Notes under the pieces: generated by a model | Seen by the model: only the letters and a program-made list of their open reading frames with translations | Databases searched by the model: none | What the model was told of the DNA's origin: nothing | From: Paenisporosarcina sp. HGH0030 | GTDB taxonomy: Bacteria; Bacillota; Bacilli; Bacillales_A; Planococcaceae | Reading direction: 5' to 3' | NCBI RefSeq assembly: GCF_000411295.1 | Contig: NZ_KE150421.1 | Coordinates: forward strand, 497,324 to 561,323 | Length of the DNA stretch: 64,000 nucleotides | In this document: positions 20,837 through 51,702 of the stretch, piece by piece | Layout of the letters: every line of letters begins with the position of its first letter | Position numbering within the stretch: the first letter of the stretch is position 1 | Position numbers and translations under genes: made by a program

Positions 20837-21180
20837 CCTGTCCCTTATTATGTCACTCTTGGTATAGTACTTTTGTTTTAAGCAGGTATAGAACCAAGAA
20901 CAGCACAAGATACATCCTATGTTTAATTTTCAGAAAAGTGGAAATGTGGGATGATGAGGGTTAATTGGGTGATGTTTCTGAATATTGAATAAACCCCCAG
21001 TTGATACTAGATTAGTTGAAAAATTTTAATAACTTGATGTTGAAAGACAGATCAGTGTATTAAATGTGAAGTTAAGTCATCAGCACGAAACCTTTACATT
21101 TTTACAAATATATTAATCTACTATTTAGTTAGGCAGGGGAGAGGTTTAATGAGGAAAAGGAGAAACAAAAAAATTATTAT
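20837..21180. repeat. Duplicated protease-3-type leader
   Basis: About 340 bp closely matching 34488-34860, the region upstream of and including the first codons of protease 3. Shared landmarks: GTTTAATTTTCAGAAAAGT, GAAAGACAGATCAGTGTA, AATATATTAATCTACTATTT, and the start ATGAG(G/A)AA(A/G)AGGAGAAAC. It has no intact gene of its own besides the 16-codon frame at 21149. Confidence 0.8.
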
Positions 21181-21199
21181 TAGAATCATTGTTTCGTAA
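21149..21199 (+). pseudogene. 16-codon remnant of a protease 3-type gene
   Basis: ATG with a good ribosome site (AGGGGAGAGG) opens MRKRRNKK, identical to the first residues of protease 3, then switches into leader sequence shared with protease 2 and stops at 21199. It marks a recombination joint and, if translated, acts as an upstream ORF 45 bp before protease 1. Confidence 0.65.
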
Positions 21200-21243
21200 G
21201 TCATTGCACTACATATGTAATAAAGTGACTGGGAGGAAAGAAA

Positions 21244-24200
21244 ATGGAAAAAAAAGCAAACAACAAAAGTAAGGTCTTAAAAAGCTTAGCTGTATTTGCT
21301 CTATCATCTAGTTTTATTTTAGGTTCTATTGTACAAGTACCTACTACTGCGAAAGCGGTTAGTTATTCTAATACTGAAAATATACTTGCTAATTTAACAC
21401 CAGAACAAAGAGCAGCACTTAACCAGTTGACCACAAATGAATCAACAGGTCTTCAAATTTCTTCAGATACAGATTTAAATTCAACGAAACAGACTTCTGT
21501 CATTATTGAGTTTGTAAATAAGCCTGCCAAAGTCGCACAAATTGAAGCAAGTGTAGAGGGAAAACAATTATCTGCGGAAGATGCATCAAATTTAGTTGAT
21601 AAAGATCATGCTACTTTCAAAAAAGATGTCCAACAATTATTATCAGAGGATAATAATAAAAAGGTAGAATTTAAAGTTAATCGTTCCTTTAAAAATGCAT
21701 TTAATGGTGTTTCAATGAGTCTCCCAGCAAATCAAATTCAAAACCTATTAAAATCAAAAGTAGTAAAATCAGTTTGGAGCAACGAAACATTTACAATAGA
21801 TCCACCTACCGCTGATAGCGAACAATTAAAAGCGGATGAAGCAAATGTGCCGAATTATGCGCCTTATGATGGACTAGATCGTCTACATGCAGAAGGCTTT
21901 ACTGGTGAAGGAATTAAAGTCGGGATACTTGATACAGGAATGGATTACAACCATCCTGACTTAAAGGATGCCTATAAAGGCGGATTTGATTTTGTCGATG
22001 ATGACAATGATCCAATGGAAACAACTTATGCCGATTGGAAAAAATCAGGTAAACCAGAAATAGGTAGTGGTCGTGCCTACTATACTGAACATGGTACACA
22101 TGTTGCGGGTATTATTGGTGGCCGAGGTTTAGCTGATAGTGAATATAAAACATTAGGTGCAGCACCAGAAGCTGATCTTTATGCTTATCGTGTACTTGGT
22201 GCATATGGGTCAGGTACAACTGATGACATTTTGGCCGGAATCGATCGTGCTGTGAAGGACGGTATGGATGTTATTAATATGTCATTAGGCAATTCTTTAA
22301 ATGATCCCATTTACGCGACTTCCATTGCTGTTAACAATGCCGTTTTAAGTGGGGTAACGACCGTTGTGGCAGCGGGGAATAGTGGAGATAAAATGTATAC
22401 ACTAGGTTCACCTGGAGCTGCTGCACTGGCACTAACGGTTGGTGCGTCTACTGTTGCACTTGATGTCTATCAATATGCTGGTGTACAGAATGGGGTCAAT
22501 TATTCATTAAGACAGCTAGCAAGAAACTATAAAGATGACTTAACGCAATTAAAAGGAAAAACCTATCAACTTGTTGATGTTGGACTAGGTAGGCCTGCTG
22601 AATTTAATGGAAAGATTTTAGATGGTAATATCGCGCTCATTAAGCGGGGCTCGATTGCCTTAATAGATAAAATTAAAAATGCAAAAGCAAAAGGTGCCAT
22701 TGGGGTACTTATGTATAATGATGAAATAAATAGTGCAGAAGGTCCCATCCAGACATTTTTAGGTGAATCAGTAGATGCGGTTCCTACATTCTCTGTCACA
22801 AACACGGAAGGCAAAACGATCTTAGCTGCCATAAATGCGGGTAAAACAGATATTACTTTCGGCGATTATTCGAAAGTAAAAACGTCTGGCAATGAATTAG
22901 CAGCTTTCAGTTCAAGAGGTCCATCACGTGTAAATTATGATATTAAACCAGAGGTAGTAGCACCTGGTGCTGCCATTCTTTCCACTGTTCCATTTTATAT
23001 AAATGATAAAACAGTCGATGGGTCTAAACCAGAGGACTATAAATATAGCTACTCCCGTTTATCCGGTACGTCCATGGCAACACCTTATGTGGCAGGTGTA
23101 TCCGCGTTACTATTACAAGCGAACGACAATCTTGAACCAGCAGACATTAAATCTATTTTAATGAATACAGCTGATCCGTTATCAAAAGATTATAGTGTAT
23201 TTGAAGTCGGTAGTGGTCAAGTGGATGCCTATGAAGCCGTTCACTCAAATGTTGAGATTCAAGTAGATGATCGAACAGCTACTCTTAATCATAAAAATGA
23301 GAAAACAATAAGAGAATTAACTGGTGGATTTAGCTTTGGATCGATTGGGTTTGATGACCAGGATATTTCAGAAGTTAGAAATTTTAAGTTAAATAATCGA
23401 AGTGAAAAAGCTAAAACATTTAATGTGAATGTGAAATTCCAAACTGGAATAAGAGACTCAAAGGATGCAGCTTTAAATAATGTCACATTAGATGGGCCAA
23501 CTTCAGTCAATATAGAAGGAAATAGCCAGAGAGTCATCAAATTTAATCTGTCTATTCCAAAAACAGCTGAAAAAGGAACATATGAGGGATATATCGTATT
23601 GACAAATAATGAAGATCCAACGGAAAACTACCAAATTCCATTTGGTGGACGAGTAGTAAACGAAGGAATTGATACATTTTCGATTATTAATCCTATGTAC
23701 TCGGGTGATACAGCTTGGCCAGAAAATGCCATTCCTTACCTTGGATTTAATTTCCAATTAAAGTCACATTTGAGGACTTTAGATGTAGTAATACAAGATG
23801 CCAAAACGGGTGAAGATCTTGGATTATTAGGATCTTACAATGGGCATTTATTGCCTGAAAACCAACTATTAACTAATACAAGTGGATTTGCTGGGTCTTA
23901 CTACCCGTTCACAGGTGATGCGAAAAATCCGATTAGCGATCAATTTGTCATTGCAAAGATGGGTCATTACAAAATAAAAATGGTTGGAACAAATAATGCT
24001 GGGAAAACATTCACAAAAGAAGCTCCTTTTATCTACGAGTTTGGAGCACCGACGATGACTTCCACTTTTGATTCGTTAGATCAAAAGGTGATTGAATATG
24101 ATGTAAGTCAGCTTGATTCAAATGGACAAATGTTATATGACTTTAATATTCATCTTAATGATCCTGAAACAGAAGAGGCAAAAAGTTTAGGTATTCCTGT

Positions 24201-25425
24201 TGATCAATCAAGCAATTCCGTTGTTTCCTTTTACAATGGACCATGGCCATATGATCCAATCTATACGGATAAAAATGGGGATTACAAGGATCAAATCCTA
24301 GTCAAACAACAAGCAGCACCTTTAAAAGTTCAGTTCTATGCCATGGATGCAGCAAGAAACTTTACTGCAGATGCTGGGACAATGCTACGGGTAGCTTTTG
24401 TTACGAATACTCGCCCATACTATTATTTAAAAGCAAATAAACAATCTATTTCGAGTGGAGAAACGGTCAATTATTCTATCCGTTCGAACAATATTAAAAA
24501 CTTAAAAACGGCAAAGATGACTATTCCGGTCATTAAAGACCATGGAGACTTAGGCACCATTAAAAATGTCGTTGTAAGTGATGCAGTGAAGCAATTTGGA
24601 GATGCAGAAGTCGCTGTAACCACCACATCAGATACGTTAAATACGTATTATACGATTATATTTAACTATTTAGGAACGAAGGCTTTACCAGAAGATATGC
24701 AGTTAGTAAATTTCGACTTACAAACATCTAACCTATATTCGAAAGGTACGACTACCAACTGGTTTGATATGGAGATGAAAGGAACGACCATCGATCAATC
24801 AAATGTACAAACAAACAATGTTTATACCTATATGGAGAGTTTTAAACTGAAACCAACCTACTCAAGGTTATGGGGTTCATTACAGTTTGAGGGTATGCTT
24901 AATCCTTTAACAGGCGGAAGGAATTTCGCAATAGACCACAGAACCATTGACGCAAAGGTTTCAGTCACCTCTTATGATGGAAAAACAGTTGTTGACGCTC
25001 CTATTACAAACAAAACGGGTAGTTACATTGCTGGTGGAATAAAAGCGGATAAAAATCCTTATACAGTGATGGTTGATGTACCAGGTCATTTTACGATGTC
25101 TAAGTCTATCGTTTTATCGTATGACGTTCGTGGTGAAATTATCGGAAGGGACATGAGTTATTTATTATCTCCAGGAAAAGCGGGAGATGTTAATAAAGAT
25201 CATGTAATTGATGTATTAGATGCAATCGAACTTCAAAAAAATTGGGGTAAAAATACATCAGGGTCCGATTTGAACTTCGACGGCACTGTTGATAAAAAGG
25301 ATATGGACTATGTAATTAAAAACTATGGATTACAAAATGACTCTGTTCCAAAACCCCCTAAAGCGAAAGAAACGTATAAAGGTGTAACGTTAGATGATGT
25401 ATTAATTAAATTAGGATTAAAATAA
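21244..25425 (+). CDS. Secreted S8 serine protease 1 (Vpr-like, dockerin-like C-terminus)
   Basis: Extracellular subtilisin-family protease of 1,393 aa. Signal peptide residues 1-38; I9-type inhibitor prodomain about 80-187; catalytic domain with Asp230 (GILDTGMDYNHPDL), His283 (EHGTHVAG), oxyanion Asn379 (VVAAGNSG) and Ser610 (SGTSMATPYVAG). A PA domain is inserted at about 440-540 (ALIKRG...GVLMYND), as in Vpr/lactocepin. Fn3-like beta domains follow (about 690-1300). A calcium-loop pair at 1314-1362 (GDVNKDHVIDVLDA, DLNFDGTVDKKDM) resembles a type I dockerin. No LPXTG or SLH anchor, so it is secreted or held by the dockerin-like part. AGGAAAG precedes the ATG. All catalytic residues are intact. 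Confidence 0.93.
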   Translation: MEKKANNKSKVLKSLAVFALSSSFILGSIVQVPTTAKAVSYSNTENILANLTPEQRAALNQLTTNESTGLQISSDTDLNSTKQTSVIIEFVNKPAKVAQIEASVEGKQLSAEDASNLVDKDHATFKKDVQQLLSEDNNKKVEFKVNRSFKNAFNGVSMSLPANQIQNLLKSKVVKSVWSNETFTIDPPTADSEQLKADEANVPNYAPYDGLDRLHAEGFTGEGIKVGILDTGMDYNHPDLKDAYKGGFDFVDDDNDPMETTYADWKKSGKPEIGSGRAYYTEHGTHVAGIIGGRGLADSEYKTLGAAPEADLYAYRVLGAYGSGTTDDILAGIDRAVKDGMDVINMSLGNSLNDPIYATSIAVNNAVLSGVTTVVAAGNSGDKMYTLGSPGAAALALTVGASTVALDVYQYAGVQNGVNYSLRQLARNYKDDLTQLKGKTYQLVDVGLGRPAEFNGKILDGNIALIKRGSIALIDKIKNAKAKGAIGVLMYNDEINSAEGPIQTFLGESVDAVPTFSVTNTEGKTILAAINAGKTDITFGDYSKVKTSGNELAAFSSRGPSRVNYDIKPEVVAPGAAILSTVPFYINDKTVDGSKPEDYKYSYSRLSGTSMATPYVAGVSALLLQANDNLEPADIKSILMNTADPLSKDYSVFEVGSGQVDAYEAVHSNVEIQVDDRTATLNHKNEKTIRELTGGFSFGSIGFDDQDISEVRNFKLNNRSEKAKTFNVNVKFQTGIRDSKDAALNNVTLDGPTSVNIEGNSQRVIKFNLSIPKTAEKGTYEGYIVLTNNEDPTENYQIPFGGRVVNEGIDTFSIINPMYSGDTAWPENAIPYLGFNFQLKSHLRTLDVVIQDAKTGEDLGLLGSYNGHLLPENQLLTNTSGFAGSYYPFTGDAKNPISDQFVIAKMGHYKIKMVGTNNAGKTFTKEAPFIYEFGAPTMTSTFDSLDQKVIEYDVSQLDSNGQMLYDFNIHLNDPETEEAKSLGIPVDQSSNSVVSFYNGPWPYDPIYTDKNGDYKDQILVKQQAAPLKVQFYAMDAARNFTADAGTMLRVAFVTNTRPYYYLKANKQSISSGETVNYSIRSNNIKNLKTAKMTIPVIKDHGDLGTIKNVVVSDAVKQFGDAEVAVTTTSDTLNTYYTIIFNYLGTKALPEDMQLVNFDLQTSNLYSKGTTTNWFDMEMKGTTIDQSNVQTNNVYTYMESFKLKPTYSRLWGSLQFEGMLNPLTGGRNFAIDHRTIDAKVSVTSYDGKTVVDAPITNKTGSYIAGGIKADKNPYTVMVDVPGHFTMSKSIVLSYDVRGEIIGRDMSYLLSPGKAGDVNKDHVIDVLDAIELQKNWGKNTSGSDLNFDGTVDKKDMDYVIKNYGLQNDSVPKPPKAKETYKGVTLDDVLIKLGLK

Positions 25426-26051: not shown

Positions 26052-29000
26052 ATGGCGAAAAAAGCAAACAACAAAAGTAAGGTCGTGAAAAGCTTAGCTG
26101 TATTTGCTCTATCATCTAGTTTTATTTTAAGTTCTATTGTACAAGTACCAACTACTGCGAAAGCGGTTAGCTATTCGAATACTGAAAATTTACTTGCTAA
26201 TTTAACACCAGAACAAAGAGCAGCACTTAACCAAATGACTACAAATGAATCAACAGGTCTTCAAATTTCTTCTGATATTGATTTAACGACAACGGAACAA
26301 ACCCATGTAATTGTCGAGTTTGCAAATAAACCAGCAAAAGTTGCTAAGATTGAAGCGGCATCAGAAGGTCAACAATTATCAGATTCTGAAGCATCAAATT
26401 TAGTTGATCAAGATCATGAAACATTTCAAAAAGATTTAGGACAAGTATTAGTTGATGAAAAGAGTAAAAAAGTAAATTATAAGATTAATCGCTCATATAA
26501 AAATGCATTAAATGGTGTTTCAATGAGTTTACCTGCAAATCAAATTCAGAATCTATTAAAATCAAAAGTTGTCAAATCAGTTTGGAGTAACGAAACGTTT
26601 ACGATTGATCCGCCTGTTCAAGGAAAAGATAATGATCCATTAAAAGCAGATGAATTCAATATCGCAAATTATACACCTTATGATGGATTAAACCGTTTAC
26701 ATGCAGAAGGCTATACCGGTAAAGGGATTAAAGTCGGTATTCTAGATACTGGAATTGATTATAACCATCCAGATTTAAAGGATGCCTATAAAGGCGGATT
26801 TGATTTTGTCGATGATGATAATGATCCAATGGAAACAACTTATGCGGATTGGAAGAAATCAGGAAAACCTGAATCTAATGGATCATCGGTTTATTACACA
26901 GAACATGGTACTCATGTTGCTGGGATTATTGGAAGCCGTGGAGTAACGGATAGTGAGTATACAACAATTGGAGCAGCACCAGAAGCAGATATTTATGCGT
27001 ACCGAGTGCTTGGACCATATGGCAGCGGACAAAGTGATGACATAATTGCAGCTGTCGATCGAGCTGTGAAGGATGATATGGATGTTATTAATATGTCATT
27101 AGGTAATTCACTTAATGATCCATTATATGCAACTTCAATTGCTGTAAACAATGCAGTATTAAGTGGAGTAACAACCGTTGTTGCAGCGGGGAATAGTGGC
27201 GATAAAAATTATACGCTAGGTTCACCAGGTGCTGCAGCCTTAGCGTTAACTGTCGGTGCATCATCTGTTGCAATTGATATTTATCAATATGCAGGTGCAC
27301 ATAATGGGGAGAATTACAATTTAAGACAATTATCAAAAAACTATAAAGATGATTTATCTACATTAAAAGGAAAAACTCTCCAACTTGTTGATGTGGGGCT
27401 CGGAGATCCAACGGGTTATGCGGGAAAAGACATAAAAGGGAAATTTGTACTCATGAGCCGAGGAGTTTATACATTGGACTCTAAAATTGCGTATGCCAAG
27501 GAACAAGGTGCTGCTGGCGTTATCATGTATAATGATGAAGCAAACAAGGCCGAGGGTGCAATTCAGTCCTTTTTAGGTGAATCAGTTAATGCGATTCCTT
27601 CATTCTCTGTTTCAAATGAAGAAGGATTAACGATCTTGGAAGCATTAAAAACTGGTAAAACTGATTTCACATTTGGCGATTTTACTAAGATACAAACAGC
27701 ATCCGATGAGTTAGCACCATTTAGTTCTAGAGGTCCTTCTCGTGTAAATTATGATATTAAACCAGAGGTTGTCGCACCTGGAGTATCAATCCTTTCAACC
27801 GTTCCATTTTATATAAATGATAAAACTGTTGATGGTTCAAAAGCTGAAGACTACAAGTATGCTTATCAACGATTATCAGGTACATCGATGGCAACACCTT
27901 ATGTGGCAGGTGTTTCAGCATTACTATTACAATCCAATAAGAGTCTCCAGCCTGAAGACATTAAATCAATTTTAATGAATACGGCTGATCCACTTTCAAA
28001 AAATTATAGTGTATTTGAAATCGGTAGTGGACGAGTAGATGCATATGAAGCAATTCATTCGAATGTTGAATTTGAAGTAGTAGATCAAACACCTACAAGT
28101 ATCAATGGAAAACAAAAGTTAATCAAAGAATTAACGGGTGGAATCAGTTTTGGTTCATATGGATTTGATGACCAAGATATTAATGATTCACGTAAGATTA
28201 CAGTGAATAATAGAAGTGAACAAGCAAAAACATTTAGTGTAAATGTTAAATTCCAAACAGGATTAAGAGGTTCCAAAGATGCAGCTCAAAATGGAGTGAC
28301 CTTAACAGGTCCAACTTCAGTTAAAGTAAATGGAATTAATCAAAAATCAATTAAATTTGACTTGAACATTCCGAAAACAGCCGAAAAAGGAACATATGAG
28401 GGATATATCGTCTTTACAAATAATGCAGATCCAAATGAGCAATATCAAATTCCTTTTGGTGGCCGTGTAGTGTACGAGGGAATCGATACATTAGAACTAC
28501 TTAATCCAATATATTCAAACAAAATAACAAACGTAACTGCATTTGATTATCCGTTTATGGCTGGTTCATTATCATTAAAATCACATATGAAAACATTAGA
28601 TGTTGTCATTCAAGATCCAAAGACAGGTGAAGATTTAGGGTTAATTGGAACATTCAATACAGGCGTAATGAATGAAAATCAAGTATATACTCTTTCAAGA
28701 CTAGTAGGTGCGATTTACTTCCCGTTTACAGGTGATTCAAAAAATCCGATCAGTAGTGATTATAAATTAATTAGACCTGGTCATTATAAATTGAAACTAG
28801 TAGGAACAAGTGAAAGTGGAAAAACATTCTCTAAGGCACAAGATTTTATGCTGGAGTATGGAACACCAAATTTTACATCTAGCTTTGATTCGTTAGACCA
28901 AAAGGTAATAGAGTATAGTGACAGCGATCTAGATTCAAAGGGACAAATGTTATATGACTTTAAGCTCAACATAAATGATCCTGAAATCGATGAGGCGATA

Positions 29001-30848: not shown

Positions 30849-32324
30849 TCATTCAATAGGTAACATGAGACGAAATATAGTTTCATGCGGTGAGGTTGAT
30901 ACCAAGAACAATTCACAATTATTAGCTTCAGCAAGTAATCGACTTAATGGTAACCCAAGTCCTAATCCCTGCTTCTTCTTTCTTTTACTGTCTCCTCGAT
31001 AATATCGTTCGAAAATATAAGGAATTTCTGGTTCTGCAATCCCTTTACCATTATCTAATATATCAAGGTATAGCTTTTTGTCTTCAATAGTCATGCTTAA
31101 GGTGATTTTAGTAGTTTCTGCTCCTGCACTATTCATTAAGAGATTAAGTAGAATTTGCTTAATTTGACCTCTATCTGCTACTATTTTCAGTGGTTTGATT
31201 AAAGGAGAGGCATCAAAGTCTATATCTTTAAAACCTTCTATAGAATGAACCTGTTGCATTACCTCTTCTATTACCTCCCAGAGAGGGAATAATACAAACT
31301 CTCCATGAACAGTGCTGGATTCTAATGACGCAAAATCTAATAAATCTTCTACCATTTTTTGCATTCTCTTAGCTTCTTCTAACGTTGTTAATAAAAATTG
31401 ATCTGCTGTTTCCCCTGTGACAATGCCTCCTTGGACGGCTTGAATCATCCCACGAATCGAAGTAACAGGGGTTCTTAATTCATGAGAAACGCCTGCAAGT
31501 AAATCAGTTCTCATTTGTTCAAGTTGTTGCAAACGCTTTGTCATTATCTTAAAAGAAGAAAATAGTTGTTGTAATTCAGCCTCTTTTACTTTCGATGCTG
31601 AAGGAAGATTCGGTGAGTAATCTCCTTCTGAAACTTTTCTCGCAGCTTCAGTTAATTGATGTAAGGGAAGTATTAATTTTCTAGAAAGATGATATATTAC
31701 AAGCCAACCTCCAAATGCGACACCTAAAATAATAAGTACAAGAAGTCCATAAGTTTCTATATTTTCCGAAAACAATTCTGGTGAAGGGGTACTTAAATAT
31801 AAAGCACCAATAACATTCCCATCTATACTTAGAGGCATGCCAACACGGAGCCATGTAACATCTTTATATTCAATTTTTTCTTTAGTTTTTTTACCGCTTA
31901 GAACACTTTCTATAGTAGGTGGTGTTTTAGCAAGAGTCTCGGATATTGATATATCTAGACTCGAAAAGTTAACAAGATTATGACCCTCTTCATTAAAAAT
32001 TTGCATAAAATCTTGAGCAACAGGACGGACTACTTCCGTTGGTAAAGCAGGTATAGGAACGGGAGTGGAAGGTACGCTAGGTATTTGACCTTGGTGAAAA
32101 CTGGGTTGTGATTGCACCATATTGGTAGCGTGTATGTATGAAGCGCTAAGTTGTTCAGCTCTCGCCTGGAGTATTTGAAAACTTTGTTGATTTTGATTTA
32201 CTTTTAGCAATACACCAGCGATAATCCCTAAAATGATAAGAATGGCTATTAGTACACCCGCATATCTTCGAGTCCAAAAACGAAGTAAAGGGATACTTTT
32301 ATCAGACTGTAAGCTAGTTAACAC
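30849..32324 (-). CDS. Sensor histidine kinase (system 1)
   Basis: 491-aa membrane kinase. TM1 about 21-41; outside sensor region about 50-190 containing a Pro-rich stretch (VPSTPVPIPALP) and a Cache/PAS-like end (LSIDGNVIGALYLS); TM2 about 191-212; HAMP about 213-265. Phospho-acceptor His281 in AGVSHELRTPVTS; HATPase boxes NLLMNSAGA, DNGKGI and GLGLGLPLSRLL. Overlaps its response regulator by 11 bp. Divergent neighbour is the small secreted repeat protein, a likely target. The signal is unknown; secretion or cell-wall stress is a contextual guess given the adjacent secreted proteases. Confidence 0.93.
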   Translation of the reverse strand: MLTSLQSDKSIPLLRFWTRRYAGVLIAILIILGIIAGVLLKVNQNQQSFQILQARAEQLSASYIHATNMVQSQPSFHQGQIPSVPSTPVPIPALPTEVVRPVAQDFMQIFNEEGHNLVNFSSLDISISETLAKTPPTIESVLSGKKTKEKIEYKDVTWLRVGMPLSIDGNVIGALYLSTPSPELFSENIETYGLLVLIILGVAFGGWLVIYHLSRKLILPLHQLTEAARKVSEGDYSPNLPSASKVKEAELQQLFSSFKIMTKRLQQLEQMRTDLLAGVSHELRTPVTSIRGMIQAVQGGIVTGETADQFLLTTLEEAKRMQKMVEDLLDFASLESSTVHGEFVLFPLWEVIEEVMQQVHSIEGFKDIDFDASPLIKPLKIVADRGQIKQILLNLLMNSAGAETTKITLSMTIEDKKLYLDILDNGKGIAEPEIPYIFERYYRGDSKRKKKQGLGLGLPLSRLLAEANNCELFLVSTSPHETIFRLMLPIE

Positions 32325-33558: not shown

Positions 33559-33894
33559 AAATCCAAATCAAAAAATTTTAGTGATCAGAGCTTTAAAGAG
33601 TATCCTTAACTTGGTTGCAGGTACAGAACCTCAACCAACAAAAGAAATTCGGTGCATCTAGTTAGAAACTAATCCGAATCAGCTCACTCTTTATCTGTTC
33701 AACGAAGTAGAAGTAACTGATTAGATAGTACTTTATCAACTCTTACATTAGTTGAAGACAATTCCAACTGATTGCCATGTCCTAAAAAAAACTAATTAAA
33801 GTATAGAGCAAAGCGCCCATGTGAAAACTTGGGCGCTATTTGACATTTACGAAGAAATGATTCACTACGGCTCTTAGTCATGTACATGTTTTGA
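33559..33894. other. Intergenic region
   Basis: A possible hairpin near 33814-33832 (GCGCCCatgtgaaaacttgGGCGC) could terminate either flank. Otherwise nothing recognised. Confidence 0.4.
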
Positions 33895-38740: not shown

Positions 38741-38752
38741 TGAACTCCCATA

Positions 38753-41799: not shown

Positions 41800-43722
41800 A
41801 TGTTTGAAATTAAGAATGTATCGAAACAATACAACGGCGAATTCGCTTTGAATAATATTTCCTTTACGATGGGAAAAGGGCTGAATTTTATAGTTGGTGC
41901 ATCGGGTAGTGGTAAAACGACTCTTTTGAAAATCATCAGCGGTATGGAACAAGATTTTGATGGAGAAGTTTACTATTGCGGAAAGAATATTAAAGAATTA
42001 ACATCTAATGAAAAAAGCTATTTTTACAACAATACCTTTGGATTTGTTTGGCAGGACTTTAATTTGCTCGAAGATTTATCGGTTTTAGACAATGTGTTGA
42101 TACCACAGTATTTAAAAAATAAACAAAATCATAAGAACGCGGAAAAGGTTTTAAAAGAACTCAAAATATTTGACCTTGCACAACGAAAAGTGAACTCTCT
42201 TTCGGGCGGTCAAAAACAGCGTGTTGCCATCGCAAGAGAGCTTATGAAAAACCCAAAGGTTATTATCGCTGACGAGCCAACAAGTGCATTGGATGAAAAA
42301 AACTCAGAAACAACAATGGATATTCTGAAAGCTATTTCTAAAAACAGGACAGTTATCGTTGTAACCCACGATGTCAACTTAATTGACAGTAATTCAAACG
42401 TAATAGATTTAGATGAGGGAGAATTTGTAGCATTACCACAAAAAAATGTAACGAAAACAGAAAAACTCACATATGGTGAAAGTCATCGCTTATCGATTAA
42501 AAATGCTTTTTCAATGACCAAATCGAATGTTAAAAGTAAATTTGGACGATTTTTAGTATCAGCCCTTTCTCTAATGATTGCAGGTATCCTTTTGCTTACA
42601 ACTGTAAGTGGGACAATTGAGAGCAGCAGCCAAGGTGATTTTGACGAGCTGATTGATACTTATGGTGATGGACTTAAAGATATTAGTATAGTTGGTAGCT
42701 TTACCAGTGCAGAAGGCGCAGGCGATAATCAGGAAGAAAAGCCGAACGCTGATATATCACAGGATATTGGTGGCTTATATGATCAATATGTAGGCGATGA
42801 GCGCGTTGATTTTACTGCTTTTTTACAAGCATTTGATAATATAAAAGTAACTGTTAGCGGGAAAGAATATCAAATACAAGGATCAGGTACTGTTCCGACA
42901 ATCAATAAGTTAGTAGCAGGAAATATGCCGACAGGCAAAGACAATGAGGTTGTTGTTCCAAAAAGTTTTGTTAAAATGTTGGGCATATCAAACGAGCAAG
43001 CAATCGGCAAAGAAATTGATTTTAGCAGCGGTATTTTCAATTGGGACACAGGTGAGCCTGTTATAAAAGACGCATCCATTACCGCAACAATCGTAGGTGT
43101 TGCAGATAATACTGTCTCTTCTGAGTTTACTGTTGACGACTCTTTCTTCTTCAGCAAAGCTGCACTTGATGATTTGAGAAGACAAGCAGGAATTGAAAAT
43201 AACGCAATGAATTTTCTTATTCGAGCGAAGACGCCAACTGATATGATTTCCATAAAAGATGAGCTTAACGCACAAGGCATTGTACCTCTTGGTCAATTTG
43301 AACTTGTCGAGGATATTGTTAGATTAAATGAGCAAACAACCGAACAGTCAGGCTCAGCAAGTATGTTCATAGGGACTTTGGCTGTCGTTATGGTTATTGC
43401 TATTTCTCTGATCACAGGTTTTATGAGACAGAGAGAATTTGCAATTTATAAAGTCAGCGGCTTTAATAGTGCTCATTTTAGTCTGCTTAACTTGACAGAA
43501 AAGATAACGGAAATCATGACAGCAATTTTGTTAATGCTTGTTACATCACCCCTTATCAATATAGCTACTAAAGGCTTGTTTAGCGCAAGTATTTTAAATT
43601 CTAAGATGTTGATTTCGGGCGTGATATTCATTGCTTTAGTAGGGGCTGCGGCTTTCTTTACAACGGCTATTTCCTTCATAATGACCAAGACAGCAATAGC
43701 TTTGAAGACAGGTGACAGATAG
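41800..43722 (+). CDS. ABC transporter half, fused ATPase-permease (MacB-like) 1
   Basis: 640 aa. Nucleotide-binding domain about 1-220: Walker A GASGSGKTT (33-41), LSGGQKQR signature, Walker B VIIADEPTSALD, His-loop VVTHD. Then TM1 (about 245-268), an extracytoplasmic MacB-type domain (about 275-510) and three C-terminal FtsX-type helices. Such MacB/BceAB-related transporters typically remove or sense antimicrobial peptides rather than import nutrients. The next gene encodes a second half of the same layout, suggesting a heterodimer. Regulated by the divergent two-component system 2. AGGAG precedes the ATG. Confidence 0.9.
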   Translation: MFEIKNVSKQYNGEFALNNISFTMGKGLNFIVGASGSGKTTLLKIISGMEQDFDGEVYYCGKNIKELTSNEKSYFYNNTFGFVWQDFNLLEDLSVLDNVLIPQYLKNKQNHKNAEKVLKELKIFDLAQRKVNSLSGGQKQRVAIARELMKNPKVIIADEPTSALDEKNSETTMDILKAISKNRTVIVVTHDVNLIDSNSNVIDLDEGEFVALPQKNVTKTEKLTYGESHRLSIKNAFSMTKSNVKSKFGRFLVSALSLMIAGILLLTTVSGTIESSSQGDFDELIDTYGDGLKDISIVGSFTSAEGAGDNQEEKPNADISQDIGGLYDQYVGDERVDFTAFLQAFDNIKVTVSGKEYQIQGSGTVPTINKLVAGNMPTGKDNEVVVPKSFVKMLGISNEQAIGKEIDFSSGIFNWDTGEPVIKDASITATIVGVADNTVSSEFTVDDSFFFSKAALDDLRRQAGIENNAMNFLIRAKTPTDMISIKDELNAQGIVPLGQFELVEDIVRLNEQTTEQSGSASMFIGTLAVVMVIAISLITGFMRQREFAIYKVSGFNSAHFSLLNLTEKITEIMTAILLMLVTSPLINIATKGLFSASILNSKMLISGVIFIALVGAAAFFTTAISFIMTKTAIALKTGDR

Positions 43723-45518
43723 TGATACAGATAAATAAACTTACAAAACGATATGATCATTCACTTATTTTGGAGGATACAAGTTTTAACTTTCCAAGCC
43801 AAGGACTTGTTTGTCTTTTAGGAGCATCGGGTTCCGGTAAAAGCACTCTGCTTAATTTGGTTGCAGGCTTCGACAGTGATTACAGTGGTGATATTACGGT
43901 TTGTGGTACTTCTATCAGCAAGATGCATGCCGATGAATTGTGTGCGTATCGCAGAGAAAATATCGGGTTTATCTTTCAAAACTACCATCTTTTAAGAGGA
44001 TATACCGTTCTTGAAAACATCTTGCTTTCTTGTGAGCTAAATACTGCAAGTGAAGAAGAAAATAGAGAAAATGCCAAAGAGCTGCTAAATAAACTGGGAT
44101 TATCACAAAAGACTAATGAAAAAATCGAAAATCTTTCAGGCGGTCAAAAGCAACGAGTTGCTATTGCAAGAGCGTTGATTAGTAATCCTCGTATTATCTT
44201 GGCGGATGAGCCGACAGGAGCATTAGACCGTAGAAACTCCAGTGAAATTATGGGACTTTTAAAAGAGATTTCAAAAGAACGTTTGGTGATTGTGATTACG
44301 CATGACCAAAAGATTTGTAGTTTTGCAGATGAAGTCGTTCATATTGAGAAAGGGAAAATTATTGCAAAAAATACCAACACTCAAAAAGCTGTTGCTTGTG
44401 ATGATAAACTCAGTTTAAATAACGCTAGTAAAGTATCTGCTTTCAAGCGGGGGCTTAAGAACTTCAAAGTGAATATTACACGCTATATGGCTGTCAGTTT
44501 GGCAATTTCCATCAGTATCCTTGTATTTATGTTGTCTTTATCTTCCGGGAATATAATGGACAAGAATATTGCGCATTTTCAAGATAAAAACACTGCCTTT
44601 AACAACGGTTATATTAAAGGTGAGGATGATGGAACAGTTATTGAATTGTTGAAATCCGATGAGCGTATCGAAAATGTGTATTACCAATACAAAATAACGG
44701 ATATTACTTTAAGGATAGGCGATAAAACTGAAGCTTTAGCAGAAAAATACCCAATGGCAAAGGCTACTGAAAAGATGTCATATGGTGCTATGCCTAAAAC
44801 TGATAAAAAAGAAATAGCACTTAGTCCGAGCCTCGCTAAAAAATTTGAAAATGATATTAGTAGTTTGCTTGGTAAAGAAGTTACCTTAAATTATGGAGAT
44901 AAAGAATACACGCTTACGATAAGCGGCGTCTTTAACGCAGACTACGATGATTTCTTTGTAAGCTCCGATATCGAACAGGAATTTTACCAAAATGTGAAAA
45001 ACGAAAAAAACTACTCCATCAGTTATGATGTAAAGAACTTTGAAGATATTGTGCCAGTCAGTCAAATGCTAGTTGACAAAAAAATCGACAGTAAAACTGC
45101 AGCCAAAGAAGTAGAAGTTTTGCAAAATACATTTAACAATCTTAGCCGTTTGTTCTTAATCGTTTCTATTTTAATCTTAGCAATTGGTTTGTTTATCAGT
45201 TCCGTATTACTGATCAAACTGCAAAATTCAAGATACAAGGAAATAGGGCTACTGTCCGCTTTGGGATATAATAAAGGAACAATACGGAAAATGATTGTCA
45301 GCGAAAATTTACTTTTAGCAACAATGTCAGCTTTATCTCAAGCTGTCCTTATTGGCTGTACGTATTTAGTCGGCATGATTTTCAATTTGGCAATTATCAT
45401 CAACCCAGTACAAATCGTACTATCAATACTTTCCACAGGCGTTGTTGTAATTGTAATTAGCATGAAAGCAAGCCACAAGTTAATTTCTACAGAGCCTGCA
45501 GTAGCGTTGAGAAAGTAA
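43722..45518 (+). CDS. ABC transporter half, fused ATPase-permease (MacB-like) 2
   Basis: 598 aa with the same order: ATPase about 1-215 (GASGSGKST, LSGGQKQR, ILADEPTGALD, VITHDQ), TM1 about 250-272, outside domain about 275-470, and three helices at the C-terminus. The GTG start shares its G with the TAG stop of the first half, so synthesis is tightly coupled and equal amounts are expected. Both ATP sites look complete. Likely role: peptide antibiotic or bacteriocin resistance or sensing; substrate unknown. Confidence 0.9.
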   Translation: MIQINKLTKRYDHSLILEDTSFNFPSQGLVCLLGASGSGKSTLLNLVAGFDSDYSGDITVCGTSISKMHADELCAYRRENIGFIFQNYHLLRGYTVLENILLSCELNTASEEENRENAKELLNKLGLSQKTNEKIENLSGGQKQRVAIARALISNPRIILADEPTGALDRRNSSEIMGLLKEISKERLVIVITHDQKICSFADEVVHIEKGKIIAKNTNTQKAVACDDKLSLNNASKVSAFKRGLKNFKVNITRYMAVSLAISISILVFMLSLSSGNIMDKNIAHFQDKNTAFNNGYIKGEDDGTVIELLKSDERIENVYYQYKITDITLRIGDKTEALAEKYPMAKATEKMSYGAMPKTDKKEIALSPSLAKKFENDISSLLGKEVTLNYGDKEYTLTISGVFNADYDDFFVSSDIEQEFYQNVKNEKNYSISYDVKNFEDIVPVSQMLVDKKIDSKTAAKEVEVLQNTFNNLSRLFLIVSILILAIGLFISSVLLIKLQNSRYKEIGLLSALGYNKGTIRKMIVSENLLLATMSALSQAVLIGCTYLVGMIFNLAIIINPVQIVLSILSTGVVVIVISMKASHKLISTEPAVALRK

Positions 45519-45628: not shown

Positions 45629-45725
45629 GTGCGCACAGCAGGAAATAGTGGGTGTAATAGAAGAACACCCTACTAAAGACAATCAACAGTATTATCTTTC
45701 AAAGAGACTGACTTATTAATATCTT

Positions 45726-45753
45726 CTTCAACTAACGGGTGCTTTAGTTGAAG
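45726..45753 (+). repeat. Intergenic repeat, type A, perfect palindrome
   Basis: CTTCAACTAA (45726-45735) and TTAGTTGAAG (45744-45753) are perfect inverted arms around CGGGTGCT: the best-preserved copy of the dispersed repeat. Confidence 0.85.
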
Positions 45754-45789
45754 AAGGAGCAAGAAAAACAAGTGTCTTAGTTGAAGAGA

Positions 45790-45814
45790 AGCTATCCTAT
45801 GAGGATAGCTTTTT
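45790..45814. terminator. Terminator hairpin
   Basis: AGCTATCC (45790-45797) and GGATAGCT (45803-45810) with a T run, downstream of the type A repeat. Confidence 0.75.
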
Positions 45815-46085
45815 CTTATTACCCACAAGAGGTCGTTAAAGTGTGGTTTACAAAGAGAACGTTCATAAAAAGATATTATAGTTTTGCGAACTATATAAAT
45901 GACTAAATAGGGGCACTTCAAAGCAGTTCGTAAAAGTGTACTTTTCCGAACATCGCATTGGGGGTAGGTTATATTTTAATTAAAAATTAGAAGAGTAATT
46001 TTCATTCTCATCAGACATCCTTTAATAGACTAAAGAGATATACTTCCCTATAATAAATAGAAAATCGTTTACCTGGGGGTGTATT

Positions 46086-47330
46086 ATGATTGAAGGAAAA
46101 TTAATAAAATTCTATCGCGAAGAGTCAGGGCTAACTCAAGGCCTACTTGCTCAAGGAATTTGTTCCGTCACACATCTTAGCAAAATAGAACGCGGGATTA
46201 CGGAGTATTCTCATGAAATTACGGATTTACTTGCAAAAAAACTTGGGATAACAATGAATATTGAACGCTCTCGCTATTTTTTCCTAAAAGAAAAACTGTT
46301 CAAATGGAATAACGCATTGATTATGATAGACTCAAAAGAAATCTATCAACTTAAAGAAGAAATAGAAAACGAATCTTTAAGATTTCTAGCTGACTTTAAA
46401 AATCAATACTATCTAATTTTGGCAAGGTATTATTTATTTGTAAATGAAAAGCCTAAAACAAAAAAAATCATAGAAACGATGAGGAATCAGTACAATGACC
46501 TTGATTCTGATGAACAAAATTTCTTAAACCACATAGACGGTATCTACATGTTTCTGACAGGTAATTTCAAGTCTTGCATTGAAACATTAAAGAAAATTGA
46601 TAACAATTATTCAAACTTAGAATACTATTATCATTTGGCAATAGCCTACCATTCAATTCAATCAACTATCTTTTCCTATTTTTATGGACAAAAGGCTTTA
46701 CAATTTTTCAAAAGCACATTAAATATCTTAAGAATTATTGATACAGAAACCCTACTTTTAGTCCAGCTTAATTCCAAGGAACCTTATGATATGGATGAAA
46801 CCAAACAACAATACGAAAAGTTGCTGAAAGTCTGTGAATCAGTCAACTGTATTGATAGAGCGTCTAAAGTCTATCACAATATAGCATTTGAATATTTTAG
46901 AAGAAAACGATACTCCGAGGCTAAACAGTCGTATGAAAAAGCATTGGAACTAATAACTGAAAAGACATCTCATTATCTAACATCACTTAATGGGTATATT
47001 TCTACCTGCTATGAAGGGAGGCTCCTTCCCGAAGAAGAGCTTATCGAACTTTCGAAAAAAGGATTAAAATTAACAAAGCAAAATCAAGATCCTAGACAAA
47101 TGGATTTTGAAATCCAACTTCATACTATCTATCAAAATGAAAAGGAGCTATATGAGTATATTGAGAAAACAGCCATTCCCATTCTCATCGCCAACGGAAA
47201 TCAGTTTGTAAAACTACATTATGAAAAAAAACTGTTTTTGTATTATGTTAAATCGAACCAAAAAGAAAAAGCCTTTCAACTAGCATCCGATAAAATGACA
47301 AGTGAAAAAAGTTATTATCATTTTGAATGA
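46086..47330 (+). CDS. XRE-type HTH regulator with TPR-like C-terminus (RRNPP-like)
   Basis: 414-aa transcription factor. HTH_XRE domain about 5-60 (FYREESGLTQGLLAQGICSVTHLSKIERG), then an all-helical region with TPR features, for example YHNIAFEYFRRKRYSEAKQSYEKALELI. The layout is that of peptide-responsive RRNPP regulators (PlcR, NprR, Rgg). It lies directly upstream of a secreted protease in the same orientation, as nprR does before nprA, so it may control protease 4. No small secreted signal-peptide gene is visible next to it, so the peptide input is unproven. GGGGGTG precedes the ATG. Its own terminator follows. Confidence 0.82.
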   Translation: MIEGKLIKFYREESGLTQGLLAQGICSVTHLSKIERGITEYSHEITDLLAKKLGITMNIERSRYFFLKEKLFKWNNALIMIDSKEIYQLKEEIENESLRFLADFKNQYYLILARYYLFVNEKPKTKKIIETMRNQYNDLDSDEQNFLNHIDGIYMFLTGNFKSCIETLKKIDNNYSNLEYYYHLAIAYHSIQSTIFSYFYGQKALQFFKSTLNILRIIDTETLLLVQLNSKEPYDMDETKQQYEKLLKVCESVNCIDRASKVYHNIAFEYFRRKRYSEAKQSYEKALELITEKTSHYLTSLNGYISTCYEGRLLPEEELIELSKKGLKLTKQNQDPRQMDFEIQLHTIYQNEKELYEYIEKTAIPILIANGNQFVKLHYEKKLFLYYVKSNQKEKAFQLASDKMTSEKSYYHFE

Positions 47331-47925: not shown

Positions 47926-50900
47926 ATGTTGAAAAAAAAGAACATGAAGACAGTTATAGCAACCTCTTTATCTACAGTTATGCTTGCCTCAACCTTTTAT
48001 AACGTTAAAGCAATTGATAAAACATCGCTTGAAAAGACACTTGAAACCTCTTCTATTGTAAACAGTATCAATGGCGCAGATGAAAAAAAGATCACGCTTA
48101 TTACAGGTGATGTCGTGACCATTAAGAAGATTGAAGGCGGTAAAAGCGTAATTAACGTGGAACCTGTTGATCGGAATGGTGCAGGTGCTCAGATTCTAAA
48201 TATTGGTGAAGATACGTATGTTATTCCAGGGTCAGCTATGCCTTACCTCGCTGCTGATAAGTTAGATAAGGATTTGTTTAATGTAACGGAATTGATCGAA
48301 AATGGCTATGATGACAAAACGCTTTCGTCTCTACCCGTTATCTTAGAATATACAGAAAAAAAAGGCAAAGCCGTTCAAGTAAAAGCTGAACCAAAAGGAG
48401 CTAAAATAGCTCGCGTGTTAGAGAGTATTAACGCTGTTGCCCTCTCTGCTACCAAAAATGAAGCGGATACGTTCTGGGAAGATATCACACCTGAGGGTAA
48501 ATCAAACGCGGCTTTATTTGAGCAAGGTATTGAAAAAATCTGGCTGGATGGAAAAGTGGAAGCCACTTTAGACAACAGCGTACCTCAGATTGGTGCCCCA
48601 ACGGCTTGGGAATCTGGTTTTACAGGTAAAGGTGTTAAGGTGGCGGTACTCGATTCAGGTATCGATCCTAATCATCCTGATCTGGCAAGTCAGATAGACG
48701 AGGCGAAAAGCTTTGTACCCGGTGAAACGGTGAATGATGCTCATGGACACGGCACACACGTTGCTTCAACGGTACTGGGAACAGGTGCGGCATCTGGAGG
48801 GAAGAACAAAGGGGTTGCTCCTGAAGCTCGGTTGCTCGTTGGTAAAGTATTAAACGACTCAGGAAGCGGTTTGGATTCTTGGATTATTGACGGTATGGAA
48901 TGGGCTTCAGACAACGCCAAGATTGTAAGCATGAGTTTGGGAAGCAGCGAGCCAAGTGACGGAACAGATCCTATGGCTCAAGCGGTAAACAGTCTAAGCA
49001 AAGACAAAGGGACACTCTTTGTCATAGCTGCCGGAAACTCAGGTTATGAAGGGGCCATCGGTTCACCAGGAGCTGCAGATGCTGCATTAACAATCGGTGC
49101 CGTTGATAAGTCAGACAACATTGCTTATTTCACTTCCAAAGGGCCTCGTTATGGAGACATGGGATTGAAACCTGACCTGTCTGCACCGGGTGTTGACATC
49201 GTTGCAGCTCGATCTGGTCTTTCATCAGGAAGCGGATCTTACAAAAGCATGAGTGGTACATCCATGGCAACTCCACATGTGGCGGGTGCTGCTGCAATCC
49301 TTCTGCAGAAGAACCCTGAGTGGAATGGAACTCAACTAAAAGAAGCGTTGATGAGTACGTCAAAAAAATTAGATTACTCGCCTTATCATATCGGATCGGG
49401 TCGATTGGATGTACCAGCAGCTGCATTCAGCACAGTGAGAGCAACTGGTTCTATATCATTTGGATTTTTCAAATGGCCACATGATAATGCTCAGCCTGTA
49501 CAGAAAACGGTCACGTATACAAACGACAGTGACTCCGCTTTAACCTTAAATCTTCAAGCAGATTTTAAGAATACAAAAGATGATGCCGCACCAAATGGTA
49601 TGTTAACCGTTTCTGAGAGTGAAATTACTATCCCGGCAAAAGGTACGAAAGACGTAACGGTAACGTTGAACCCGACACTTGGTGAATTAGGCTCTCGTTA
49701 TGAAGGACACCTGACAGCAACAGATGCCGATGGCAAACAAGTGGCTCATACTTCAATGGGTATGGTAAAGGAAGAGGAAAAGTATCCGTTAACGTTTAAC
49801 GCTACTGACCGTAACGGGAACCCTACCCTTACGTATGTTGGACTCGTTAACAAAAACATGGATCCTGAATTTGTTGCTGTAAACGGAACAACAGAAGTTC
49901 GTTTACCCGCTGGAACCTATTCAGCTATGTCTATGATGGAAGTAGATACTGAAACAGATCACCAAGGTGTGGCATTGGTTGGTACACCAGAGATTAAATT
50001 AGACGGTCCTCAAACAGTAGAACTTGATGCTCGACAAGCAAAAGAAATTTCAGCAGAAGTGCCGAAGAATACAGAACCAAGCTATCAGCGCATGGAATAC
50101 TACCGTTCTCTTGATGGCAAAACAATGAATCACATTTATTTAATGCCTGTGTGGAACGATAAAATGTATGCTGTCCCAACAAAGGAAGTTAAGACAGGAG
50201 ACTTCGAATTTTTGACTCGCTGGCGTTTAATAAAACCTTCCCTTGAGATCAATTTTAAAGGAAAAGTGTTGGATGATATTCCGTTGGCTGGAAGTACACG
50301 TCTTGATGGAAAATATAACTTATCAACCGTTTATGCAGGAAAAGGAACAGCAGTTGACTATGAGCGTCTGAAAGCAAAAGGCAAAGCGGTTGTCGTCGAT
50401 CGCAACACGGAAGTTACGCCATCTGAGCAGGCCGTTGCGGCATATGCAGCGGGTGCAAAGCTGTTGATTATCGTAAACAATGAAGATAAGGAATTCAATG
50501 TGTTTGTAGGAAATCCAGATTATACAGATATTCCTCTTGCCGTGGCTGGAATCAGTAAAAGTGAAGGCGATAAAGTGATTTCAGCAGCACGTTCCGGTGA
50601 CCTGAAATTGTTTGTTGAAGGTGAAGTAAATACTCCTTATGTCTATGATTTAATGGATGTGCATCAAGACCAGATTCCAAAGAATTTAAAATATGCACCA
50701 TCTAACAATGAACTAGTCGAGATTGATACGCGTTACAAATCAGACCGTGAAGCACCTGGCGGAGAGTTCCGTTATGATCTGCGTCCGTACACAAGAGGAG
50801 CTGTTGGGTTTTTATACAAATTACAGTTGCCATCTGTTCGAACAGAGTGGGTTTCAGCAGTGAAAGATACACTCTGGTATCACCATACAGAAGTATTAGA

Positions 50901-51648
50901 CAGTCCTTGGGAAGTTCGCCAGCCTGCTGTTACCTATGAAAAAGGTCAAAAGCTTCAAGAAGACTGGTTCTCACCAGTAGCTCGTCCTCGTTTGGGAGTT
51001 GGTTATTGGACACCTAACCGCCAAGGGAACTATTTACAATTTAATATTCCTGCTTGGGCAGATTCAGGGAATGGCTCTACAGGCGGTATCGGTTATGATG
51101 ATTCCGTGAAAAATCAAACTCTTAAATTGTTCCAAGGAGATACCCTTCTTAGCGAAAGAAAAGGACAGGCTTTATATTTATTTAATCCAGTCCCAGAAGA
51201 AAAAACACAATACCGGTTAGTAAGTGATGCAAAGCGTGATCCGAATCGCTGGACAACATCTTTAAGTACTCATACGGAATGGACATTCTGGTCTGGAAAA
51301 GGTGAGGATTTCCAAACGTCGCTTCCGTTCTATTCTCTTGACTACAAAGTTGCAACAGATATGAACGGCAATGCATTAGCTGCACCATCCACTGCAATCG
51401 AACTTTCTGTTGCAAAACTTGATGATGTAGCGGGTTACGGTAAATTAGAGGGAGCTACATTAGAGGTTTCCTTTAATGAAGGAGAGTCATGGAAAAAAGT
51501 AAAACTTGAGCGTACAGCGGATGATCGTTGGACAGCTAAGATTAACAATCCTACGACAAACAAATATGTTTCCCTCCGTGCAACCGCTTGGGATGACCAA
51601 GGAATCAAAATTTCTCAGGAAATTATTAAGGCTTATGGTTTGAGATAA
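47926..51648 (+). CDS. Secreted S8 serine protease 4
   Basis: 1,240 aa, same architecture as protease 3 and perhaps half identical: signal peptide about 1-29, pro-region with TLITGDVVTI, Asp243 (AVLDSGIDPNHPD), His275 (HGHGTHVAST), Asn371 (VIAAGNSG), Ser446 (SGTSMATPHVAG), downstream PA-like domain about 815-890 (AVAAYAAGAKLLIIVNNED), C-terminal beta domain (KYVSLRATAWDDQG). No wall anchor. TTAGGAGG precedes the start. Codon use is even and more host-like than in protease 3. Follows the RRNPP-like regulator. Complete and likely active. Confidence 0.93.
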   Translation: MLKKKNMKTVIATSLSTVMLASTFYNVKAIDKTSLEKTLETSSIVNSINGADEKKITLITGDVVTIKKIEGGKSVINVEPVDRNGAGAQILNIGEDTYVIPGSAMPYLAADKLDKDLFNVTELIENGYDDKTLSSLPVILEYTEKKGKAVQVKAEPKGAKIARVLESINAVALSATKNEADTFWEDITPEGKSNAALFEQGIEKIWLDGKVEATLDNSVPQIGAPTAWESGFTGKGVKVAVLDSGIDPNHPDLASQIDEAKSFVPGETVNDAHGHGTHVASTVLGTGAASGGKNKGVAPEARLLVGKVLNDSGSGLDSWIIDGMEWASDNAKIVSMSLGSSEPSDGTDPMAQAVNSLSKDKGTLFVIAAGNSGYEGAIGSPGAADAALTIGAVDKSDNIAYFTSKGPRYGDMGLKPDLSAPGVDIVAARSGLSSGSGSYKSMSGTSMATPHVAGAAAILLQKNPEWNGTQLKEALMSTSKKLDYSPYHIGSGRLDVPAAAFSTVRATGSISFGFFKWPHDNAQPVQKTVTYTNDSDSALTLNLQADFKNTKDDAAPNGMLTVSESEITIPAKGTKDVTVTLNPTLGELGSRYEGHLTATDADGKQVAHTSMGMVKEEEKYPLTFNATDRNGNPTLTYVGLVNKNMDPEFVAVNGTTEVRLPAGTYSAMSMMEVDTETDHQGVALVGTPEIKLDGPQTVELDARQAKEISAEVPKNTEPSYQRMEYYRSLDGKTMNHIYLMPVWNDKMYAVPTKEVKTGDFEFLTRWRLIKPSLEINFKGKVLDDIPLAGSTRLDGKYNLSTVYAGKGTAVDYERLKAKGKAVVVDRNTEVTPSEQAVAAYAAGAKLLIIVNNEDKEFNVFVGNPDYTDIPLAVAGISKSEGDKVISAARSGDLKLFVEGEVNTPYVYDLMDVHQDQIPKNLKYAPSNNELVEIDTRYKSDREAPGGEFRYDLRPYTRGAVGFLYKLQLPSVRTEWVSAVKDTLWYHHTEVLDSPWEVRQPAVTYEKGQKLQEDWFSPVARPRLGVGYWTPNRQGNYLQFNIPAWADSGNGSTGGIGYDDSVKNQTLKLFQGDTLLSERKGQALYLFNPVPEEKTQYRLVSDAKRDPNRWTTSLSTHTEWTFWSGKGEDFQTSLPFYSLDYKVATDMNGNALAAPSTAIELSVAKLDDVAGYGKLEGATLEVSFNEGESWKKVKLERTADDRWTAKINNPTTNKYVSLRATAWDDQGIKISQEIIKAYGLR

Positions 51649-51661
51649 CATCAATTAGATT

Positions 51662-51702
51662 AATAGCATACCCCTCACTAGCTGAGGGGTATGCTATTTT
51701 TA
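51662..51702. terminator. Protease 4 terminator
   Basis: AATAGCATACCCCTCA (51662-51677) and TGAGGGGTATGCTATT (51683-51698): a perfect 16-bp stem, 5-nt loop, T run. Confidence 0.95.

Follow-up and report, generated by a model that had tools for sequence, protein, structure and literature searches.

We analysed a 64,000-nucleotide stretch (the window) of the genome of Paenisporosarcina sp. HGH0030, in which four genes for large secreted proteases of the S8 (subtilase) family lie between positions 20837 and 51702. Judging from sequence comparison and structure prediction, we read this region as one of the variable sites at which a mobile, starvation-controlled arsenal of exoproteases for protein scavenging, spread over the whole genome and in part possibly self-scaffolding, is encoded, and put the probability of this reading at about 0.6. 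The original prediction for this DNA had regarded the region as an island that forms a functional unit with regulators of its own. That view was not borne out: 24 further S8 matches were found scattered over three contigs of the same genome, and we therefore regard the region as a sample of the protease set and not as a unit.

In total, 28 S8 matches were detected on three contigs of the genome (3.52 Mb), and with the gene models built in this analysis the S8 genes take up 3.1% of it (110 kb). The median in 60 relatives was 4 matches, and a single genome, the draft genome OV554 of the same genus group, had a higher number (32), followed by 17 and 13. The difference between 28 matches and a median of 4 is more than chance. 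Twelve genomes selected for holding a relative of one of the window proteases (protease 1, below), OV554 included, contained 7-62 matches. The highest count was that of Gottfriedia acidiceleris 1-17 (5.1 Mb), with 62 S8 and 29 dockerin matches. BLAST comparison divided the 28 S8 matches of HGH0030 into families of 10, 5, 5 and 4 members and four singles, and the G+C content of the genes ranged from 34 to 49%, the control DNA averaging 39%. A Pfam domain scan covered 25 of the 28 proteins; Fn3-like domains and the PA domain accompany the S8 domain among these, and five carry S-layer homology (SLH) domains. The SLH domains would fit proteases that act on the cell's own envelope, in S-layer turnover or in spore or wall maturation, and the organism group does sporulate. 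However, 28 members of varied architecture, gain or loss of genes within the species and a starvation-type promoter box (below) are poorly suited to housekeeping, and we consider an envelope function very improbable.

Secreted proteases with a cohesin-X-dockerin tail

The four genes all lie on the plus strand and encode protease 1 (21244-25425; 1393 amino acids), protease 2 (26052-30224; 1390 amino acids), protease 3 (34815-38630; 1271 amino acids) and protease 4 (47926-51648; 1240 amino acids). Each protein covered the Pfam Peptidase_S8 profile almost entirely (E 9.6e-60 to 1.1e-64) and contained the Asp, His and Ser motifs of the catalytic triad, which places all four in the S8 subtilase family. 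Motif counts for the other 24 S8 proteins of the genome were set aside, since some families were missed by them. Their N-termini look like signal peptides, and no cell-wall sorting signal was noticed on inspection of the sequences. Two architectures could be distinguished by Pfam: in proteases 1 and 2 an I9 domain precedes an S8 domain that is interrupted by a PA domain, and a dockerin lies at the C-terminus; in proteases 3 and 4 the PA domain lies far C-terminal of the S8 domain. The original prediction had described four complete secreted S8 proteases of two architectures, and our positions and lengths agree with it; its account of the proteases was correct as far as it went, and overlooked the dockerin/cohesin tails and a shared promoter cassette. 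The proteases are likely to digest outside protein. S8, PA and Fn3-like domains are common to enzymes of this kind, to lactocepin PrtP and to Vpr-type subtilases, and the tails differ. PrtP was also among the plasmid matches to protease 1.

The tail comprises three modules (cohesin-like, X and dockerin) and is encoded at 24394-25422 (plus strand) in protease 1, as delimited by a tail alignment, profile matches to the PDB, an AlphaFold model and Foldseek, and at 29199-30221 (plus strand) in protease 2, as delimited by alignment and profile. An alignment was made of the final 343 residues of protease 1 and the corresponding parts of 18 relatives. With Pfam at E 0.01, dockerin was matched in all 19 sequences and cohesin in five. 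The core calcium-loop residues of the dockerin were invariant throughout the alignment, the two calcium-binding repeats that mark the dockerins of cohesin-dockerin proteins were present, and PF00404 scored above its own cut-off in proteases 1 and 2. A profile of the tail matched chiefly dockerins and X-dockerins in the PDB, with cohesins at the profile start. For the cohesin part by itself (18 sequences), chains of scaffoldins or cohesins made up the 14 best PDB matches, of which ten were below E 0.01 and the best at 1.7e-7, and at E 0.1 nine of the 18 aligned members matched the Pfam cohesin family.

The AlphaFold model of the protease 1 tail had a mean pLDDT (predicted local distance difference test score) of 92.5 and a predicted template modelling score (pTM) of 0.79. 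In a Foldseek comparison with 350,542 PDB chains, the four top matches of this model were cohesin-X-dockerin fragments of the CipA scaffoldin of Clostridium thermocellum (4fl4 and 3kcp), with E values of 2.8e-16 to 2.9e-14 over 342-347 alignment columns; the order of the three modules in CipA is that seen here. Template modelling (TM) scores were 0.66-0.68 for the X-dockerin alone and up to 0.62 for cohesins by target length. The best 50 of the 542 matches below E 0.001 also include antibody chains, weaker than CipA, as is expected because these are beta sandwiches. By fold, the predicted structure of protease 1 contains a cohesin module, and the profile comparison points to the same assignment. 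CipA itself, from an anaerobic cellulose degrader, bears several cohesins and serves as a non-catalytic scaffold, whereas the trimodule described here forms the C-terminal part of a subtilisin-like protease.

In the HGH0030 genome the trimodule profile matched nine open reading frames (ORFs), all of them S8 ORFs, and eight of the matches were nearly complete. One of these eight, at 636 kb of contig C1, has three SLH domains C-terminal of the dockerin. The ninth match is partial and belongs to a 2,844-residue S8 protein (contig C3, 86927-95461) in which Shr-like_HID, List_Bact_rpt and Big_6 domains follow the protease. A cohesin search of the genome gave matches in three S8 ORFs, and dockerin was above the Pfam cut-off in two of them and just under it in the third. 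At the sensitivity of Pfam or of the trimodule profile no separate scaffoldin was found in this genome, cohesin, dockerin and trimodule searches matching S8 ORFs only. As far as these searches go, the arrangement is not that of a cellulosome, in which a non-catalytic scaffoldin with multiple cohesins binds many dockerin-bearing enzymes. We also surveyed 298 other Bacilli, scoring at most seven candidates of each genome, so that the counts are lower bounds (the HGH0030 genome itself gives 7 matches in this way and not 9). At least 18 genomes contained a trimodule match, one match in 17 of them and two in one, and the match was near-complete in at least eight. Seven genomes had a single near-complete trimodule; Pfam, which is insensitive here and missed known modules in places (both of them in one genome, G184), detected no further dockerin or cohesin in five of the seven and further ones in two. 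If the five genomes indeed hold no others, the only partner of the tail would be the protein itself, either in cis or between copies.

It is quite possible that these proteins are ordinary nutritional exoproteases whose tail is no more than a folded, calcium-stabilised spacer, any cohesin-dockerin contact being confined to one chain, and that insertions simply accumulate in this region as a hotspot. The five genomes lacking other dockerins or cohesins at Pfam sensitivity are in keeping with this explanation, since a different partner need not exist, as are the strong divergence of the cohesin-like part in the window and the occupation of the protease site by other genes in one congener (below). 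A spacer is more difficult to reconcile with calcium-loop residues that do not vary in any of the 19 sequences, with the retention of the trimodule in nine plasmid genes and eight genes of this genome, and with the S-layer anchor placed behind the dockerin of one member.

Cohesin-dockerin assembly is known chiefly from plant-fibre degraders with a separate scaffold. A dockerin has been seen on subtilases, one of them being NP_691157.1, which presumably comes from Oceanobacillus. This protein (PMC2605481) and a subtilisin-like protease of C. thermocellum (PMC3573020) are described as combining an S8 domain with a dockerin, as proteases 1 and 2 do, and the word cohesin is absent from the main text of PMC2605481. 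The mucinolysome of Limousia provides an example of cellulosome-like complexes directed at a non-cellulose substrate (PMC12997984); there, however, the organisms are anaerobic and the substrate is mucin, whereas here cohesin and dockerin are found on one chain with a protease. The literature searched, which included some articles in excerpt, contained no account of a secreted protease from bacilli that bears a cohesin; this does not amount to proof of absence. The tails may point to a relative of the cellulosome whose substrate is protein. If this is true, a scaffold and a docking module on a single enzyme chain, present in many copies, would represent a different design of surface enzyme complex, and the tails would be a ready source of modules.

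Promoter cassette and regulators beside the proteases

Upstream of protease 1 (20832-21133, plus strand) we identified a promoter cassette, behind which lies what remains of the 5' leader from a gene of the protease 3 type. The cassette occurs in eight copies of 91-353 bp in the genome, the copy of protease 1 included, each directly before an S8 gene. The copies are located at 518, 532, 636 and 646 kb of contig C1 and at 83, 86, 96 and 101 kb of contig C3, and precede genes of three protease families: the 10-member family (518 and 636 kb, and 86, 96 and 101 kb of C3), that of protease 3 (532 kb), and a family represented at 646 kb and at 83 kb of C3. The copy before protease 3 lies at 34489-34798 (plus strand). 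No cassette was present in 1.2 Mb of control DNA from the same genome. Within a genus group of nine genomes, three contained the cassette, namely HGH0030, OV554 and G061, a genome rated as the same species as HGH0030.

The core of the cassette contains AATTTTC(A/T/G)GAAAA(G/A)T, which resembles a CodY box. Against the consensus used, all eight cassettes scored one or two mismatches (one in six copies, two in the other two), as would befit promoters of a CodY regulon. The box before protease 1, AATTTTCAGAAAAGT (20925-20939, plus strand), has one mismatch, and that before protease 3 lies at 34582-34596. A one-strand scan detected seven boxes with at most one mismatch in 312 kb around the proteases, six of them inside cassettes, as compared to one in the 1.2 Mb of control DNA; the 312 kb had been fetched for their proteases, and with the control account for 43% of the genome. 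Of the 20 S8 genes that do not have the cassette, two (at 2145 and 859 kb) have a two-mismatch box upstream. A consensus promoter scan of the cassette gave one site, on the opposite strand, against 2.8 expected. A known RNA element was ruled out as an explanation of the cassette, as no Rfam family matched and the fold z-score was -1.80, with 4 of 100 shuffled sequences folding equally well.

A second layer of control may be provided by a regulator with an N-terminal helix-turn-helix (HTH) and tetratricopeptide repeats (TPR) encoded upstream of protease 4 (46086-47330, plus strand). The best natural PDB match to a profile of the regulator set was NprR (4gpk, E = 4.5e-31), an engineered TPR protein scoring higher, and its HTH and NprR-related TPR assign the window regulator to the NprR branch of the RRNPP family. 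Regulators of this type adjoin 4 of the 28 S8 genes, at 545 (the pair in the window), 2127, 2255 and 2341 kb of contig C1, with gaps of about 0.3-0.6 kb and varying orientations. The 1.2 Mb of control DNA contained no complete NprR-like regulator, only one HTH match of 134 amino acids. Among 20 external loci, which had been selected for holding a protease, a regulator adjoins the S8 gene in four (L030, L032, L033 and L038), and OV554 has a counterpart of the window pair. The window regulator is 96% identical to that of OV554 and 33-39% identical to the aligned regulators of other protease loci. A short reading frame downstream of it was not conserved in OV554, as seen by inspection of the alignment of one stretch. 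Of the regulators in the region, only the HTH-TPR type recurs beside proteases. For the two two-component systems, as for a pair of ATP-binding cassette (ABC) proteins also present (below), the window itself was the only source of relatives above 250 bits in the protease-surrounding DNA searched.

The original prediction had also considered an exoprotease weapon. In the B. cereus group NprR-NprX switches on a protease gene (PMC4873490), and the NprR-like control proposed here resembles this exoenzyme control, which would suit proteases used chiefly against competitors or a host; the neighbours of the regulator here are S8 proteases, in contrast to the metalloprotease NprA there. However, domain scans of the region, which covered 20 of the 51 ORFs listed for the window, revealed no toxin, delivery or immunity gene, the CodY-like box is suited to nutrient control, and in OV554 the regulator-protease copy lies near an operon that by inspection resembles one for oligopeptide import. 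We therefore regard a weapon as improbable.

Variable presence and exchange of protease genes

Comparison with related genomes revealed that the presence of the region varies. In the congener G005 the flanks are collinear with the window (7.5-17.4 and 61.0-62.7 kb), and 6.2 kb of other genes replace about 41 kb (about 20.0-61.0 kb). Such presence and absence at a fixed site between close relatives is the mark of a genomic island. The site in G005 (locus L072, 14839-18797) encodes a Hen1-like methyltransferase and a polynucleotide kinase-phosphatase-like protein, which by inspection look like RNA repair. In G061, 4.7 kb with a gene for an additional S8 protease of 1170 amino acids replace window positions 51704-52184, and over 4.1 kb the DNA of this additional region shares 82% identity with sequence from Gottfriedia acidiceleris. 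The draft genome OV554 contains the unit of regulator and protease 4 (5.9 kb, 94% identical) near the oligopeptide-transport-like operon, and the remainder of the stretch fetched from OV554 did not match the window except for a short S8 cross-match. The original prediction had named the same genes at unrelated loci of a relative as speaking against an island acting as one system, and the regulator-protease 4 pair of OV554, elsewhere in that draft, is such a case. Variable presence was thus confirmed by the absence from G005 and the additional protease in G061; a fixed single unit was not, its parts lying apart in OV554.

We built a tree of 25 trimodule proteases, in which those of Paenisporosarcina are interspersed with those of Bacillus and Gottfriedia. 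The nine Paenisporosarcina rows require 6 label changes, all forced by well-supported branches; as 80 of 500 random relabellings gave a count no higher, clustering of the genus barely exceeds that expected by chance. Rows with long branches and unsure placement include the protease at 636 kb of contig C1 and do not include protease 1. Protease 1 groups with a protein of Bacillus sp. 7884-1 (support 100/99) and next with one of Gottfriedia acidiceleris (100/100), and protease 2 with a distant copy in its own genome and with OV554. A simple tandem duplication giving rise to proteases 1 and 2 could thus be rejected.

Over its first 200 bases the protease 1 gene shares 93-96% identity with resident copies and 78% with the Bacillus gene. 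From base 600 to the end, in steps of 200 bases, identity to Bacillus ranges from 82 to 96% and that to the residents from 57 to 88%. By these comparisons protease 1 is a mosaic of a resident leader and a Bacillus-type body. The stretch upstream of protease 1 and its leader are shared with a gene of OV554 and with the 636-kb gene, the bodies of which differ, and because the leader is common to genes with different bodies we read this as one promoter-leader serving several bodies. A shared promoter-leader with exchanged bodies would be a readable case of how acquired secreted enzymes may fall under existing nutrient control.

Among plasmid records, 459 matched protease 1, and CP053689.1 (250 kb, labelled Arthrobacter citreus NEB 577) was the only one to cover at least 80% of it; no phage record covered 80%. 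CP053689.1 holds nine near-complete trimodule S8 genes, one more full-length S8 gene and S8 fragments, together with VirB4- and VirD4-type genes and an NprR-like gene adjoining a dockerin-tail fragment; the profile search covered four of six stretches (200 of 250 kb), and the other two are without annotated S8. A second HTH protein family was seen near several of the proteases on this plasmid and in locus L038. The plasmid carries spore and germination genes, which suggests that the Arthrobacter citreus label is wrong and that the plasmid comes from a spore-former. Its full-length S8 proteins are only about 37-66% identical to their best matches in HGH0030, and it is therefore not a direct donor. 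As far as sequence comparison goes, the protease set is both genome-wide and shuffled, with protease lineages intermingled between bacterial families, one gene of mosaic make-up and a compound promoter-leader that precedes different bodies. Assembly by transfer and duplication, as proposed originally, finds support in the mixing seen in the tree, the mosaic gene, the additional protease of G061 and the plasmid with nine relatives.

In the arsenal reading, the CodY-like box of the cassette would repress protease genes while amino acids are plentiful, and NprR-like regulators would contribute control by cell density or peptides. The secreted proteases would then break down outside protein, their tails would allow one protease chain to bind another or itself, and the S-layer-anchored member at 636 kb could fix the complex at the cell surface. 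New protease genes would come by transfer, insert downstream of a promoter and leader that are already resident, and be reshuffled through recombination. The more specific proposal of a self-scaffolding, S-layer-tied 'proteolysome' in spore-forming bacilli, without a dedicated scaffoldin and with promoter-leader sites that swap incoming bodies, is put forward tentatively, and we think it rather unlikely to hold in full.

Several observations weigh against the arsenal reading. Most PDB matches of the cohesin part span just its first 45 or so positions, and the cohesin parts of proteases 1 and 2 have no Pfam cohesin match even at E 0.1 and at E 0.001, respectively. The whole-chain TM score of the protease 1 tail model to CipA is low (0.34-0.41), which we interpret as modules positioned differently relative to one another. 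The cassette precedes just 8 of the 28 S8 genes, with proteases 2 and 4 of the window lacking it, and was found at one of the 20 external loci, that of the congener; the consensus used for scoring is one that we take to be that of the CodY box. The NprR-like regulator stands at just 4 of the 28 S8 genes, and in its copy at 2341 kb the match is interrupted by a stop. No conserved reading frame for a signal peptide of the regulator was seen in the one stretch examined, no systematic search having been made. Finally, PLSDB types CP053689.1 as non-mobilizable.

Other genes and relics in the region

Between the proteases lie two OmpR-type two-component systems, both on the minus strand and assigned by Pfam. 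The first consists of a kinase (30849-32324) and a regulator (32314-32991), and the second (39736-41602) includes a kinase gene at 39736-40932. A kinase relic at 33889-34333 is a partial copy of the latter, in three adjoining pieces of 89-94% identity. A small repeat protein of 105 amino acids (33241-33558, plus strand) is, from its sequence, probably secreted and was without a Pfam match. The ABC protein pair (41800-45518, plus strand) has an FtsX permease match in its second member. A fragment of a transposase, by inspection of the IS3 type of insertion sequence (IS), was identified at 38872-39648 (plus strand) by Pfam matches to HTH_21 and rve. All these elements, like the RRNPP-like regulator, had been listed in the original prediction and were located. 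An integrase relic had also been listed; among the 20 ORFs scanned there was no integrase, the 'integrase core' match being that of the IS fragment. The window contains no tRNA.

Outside the protease genes, a T-box leader (96.4 bits) was detected on the minus strand at 7865-8075. A repeat of about 220-330 bp at 10022-10354, with an inverted copy at 4556-4776, occurs at many places in this and other genomes of the genus with about 73-95% identity, and short repeats at 45722-45951 and 62790-62869 likewise recur at many places in genomes of the genus.

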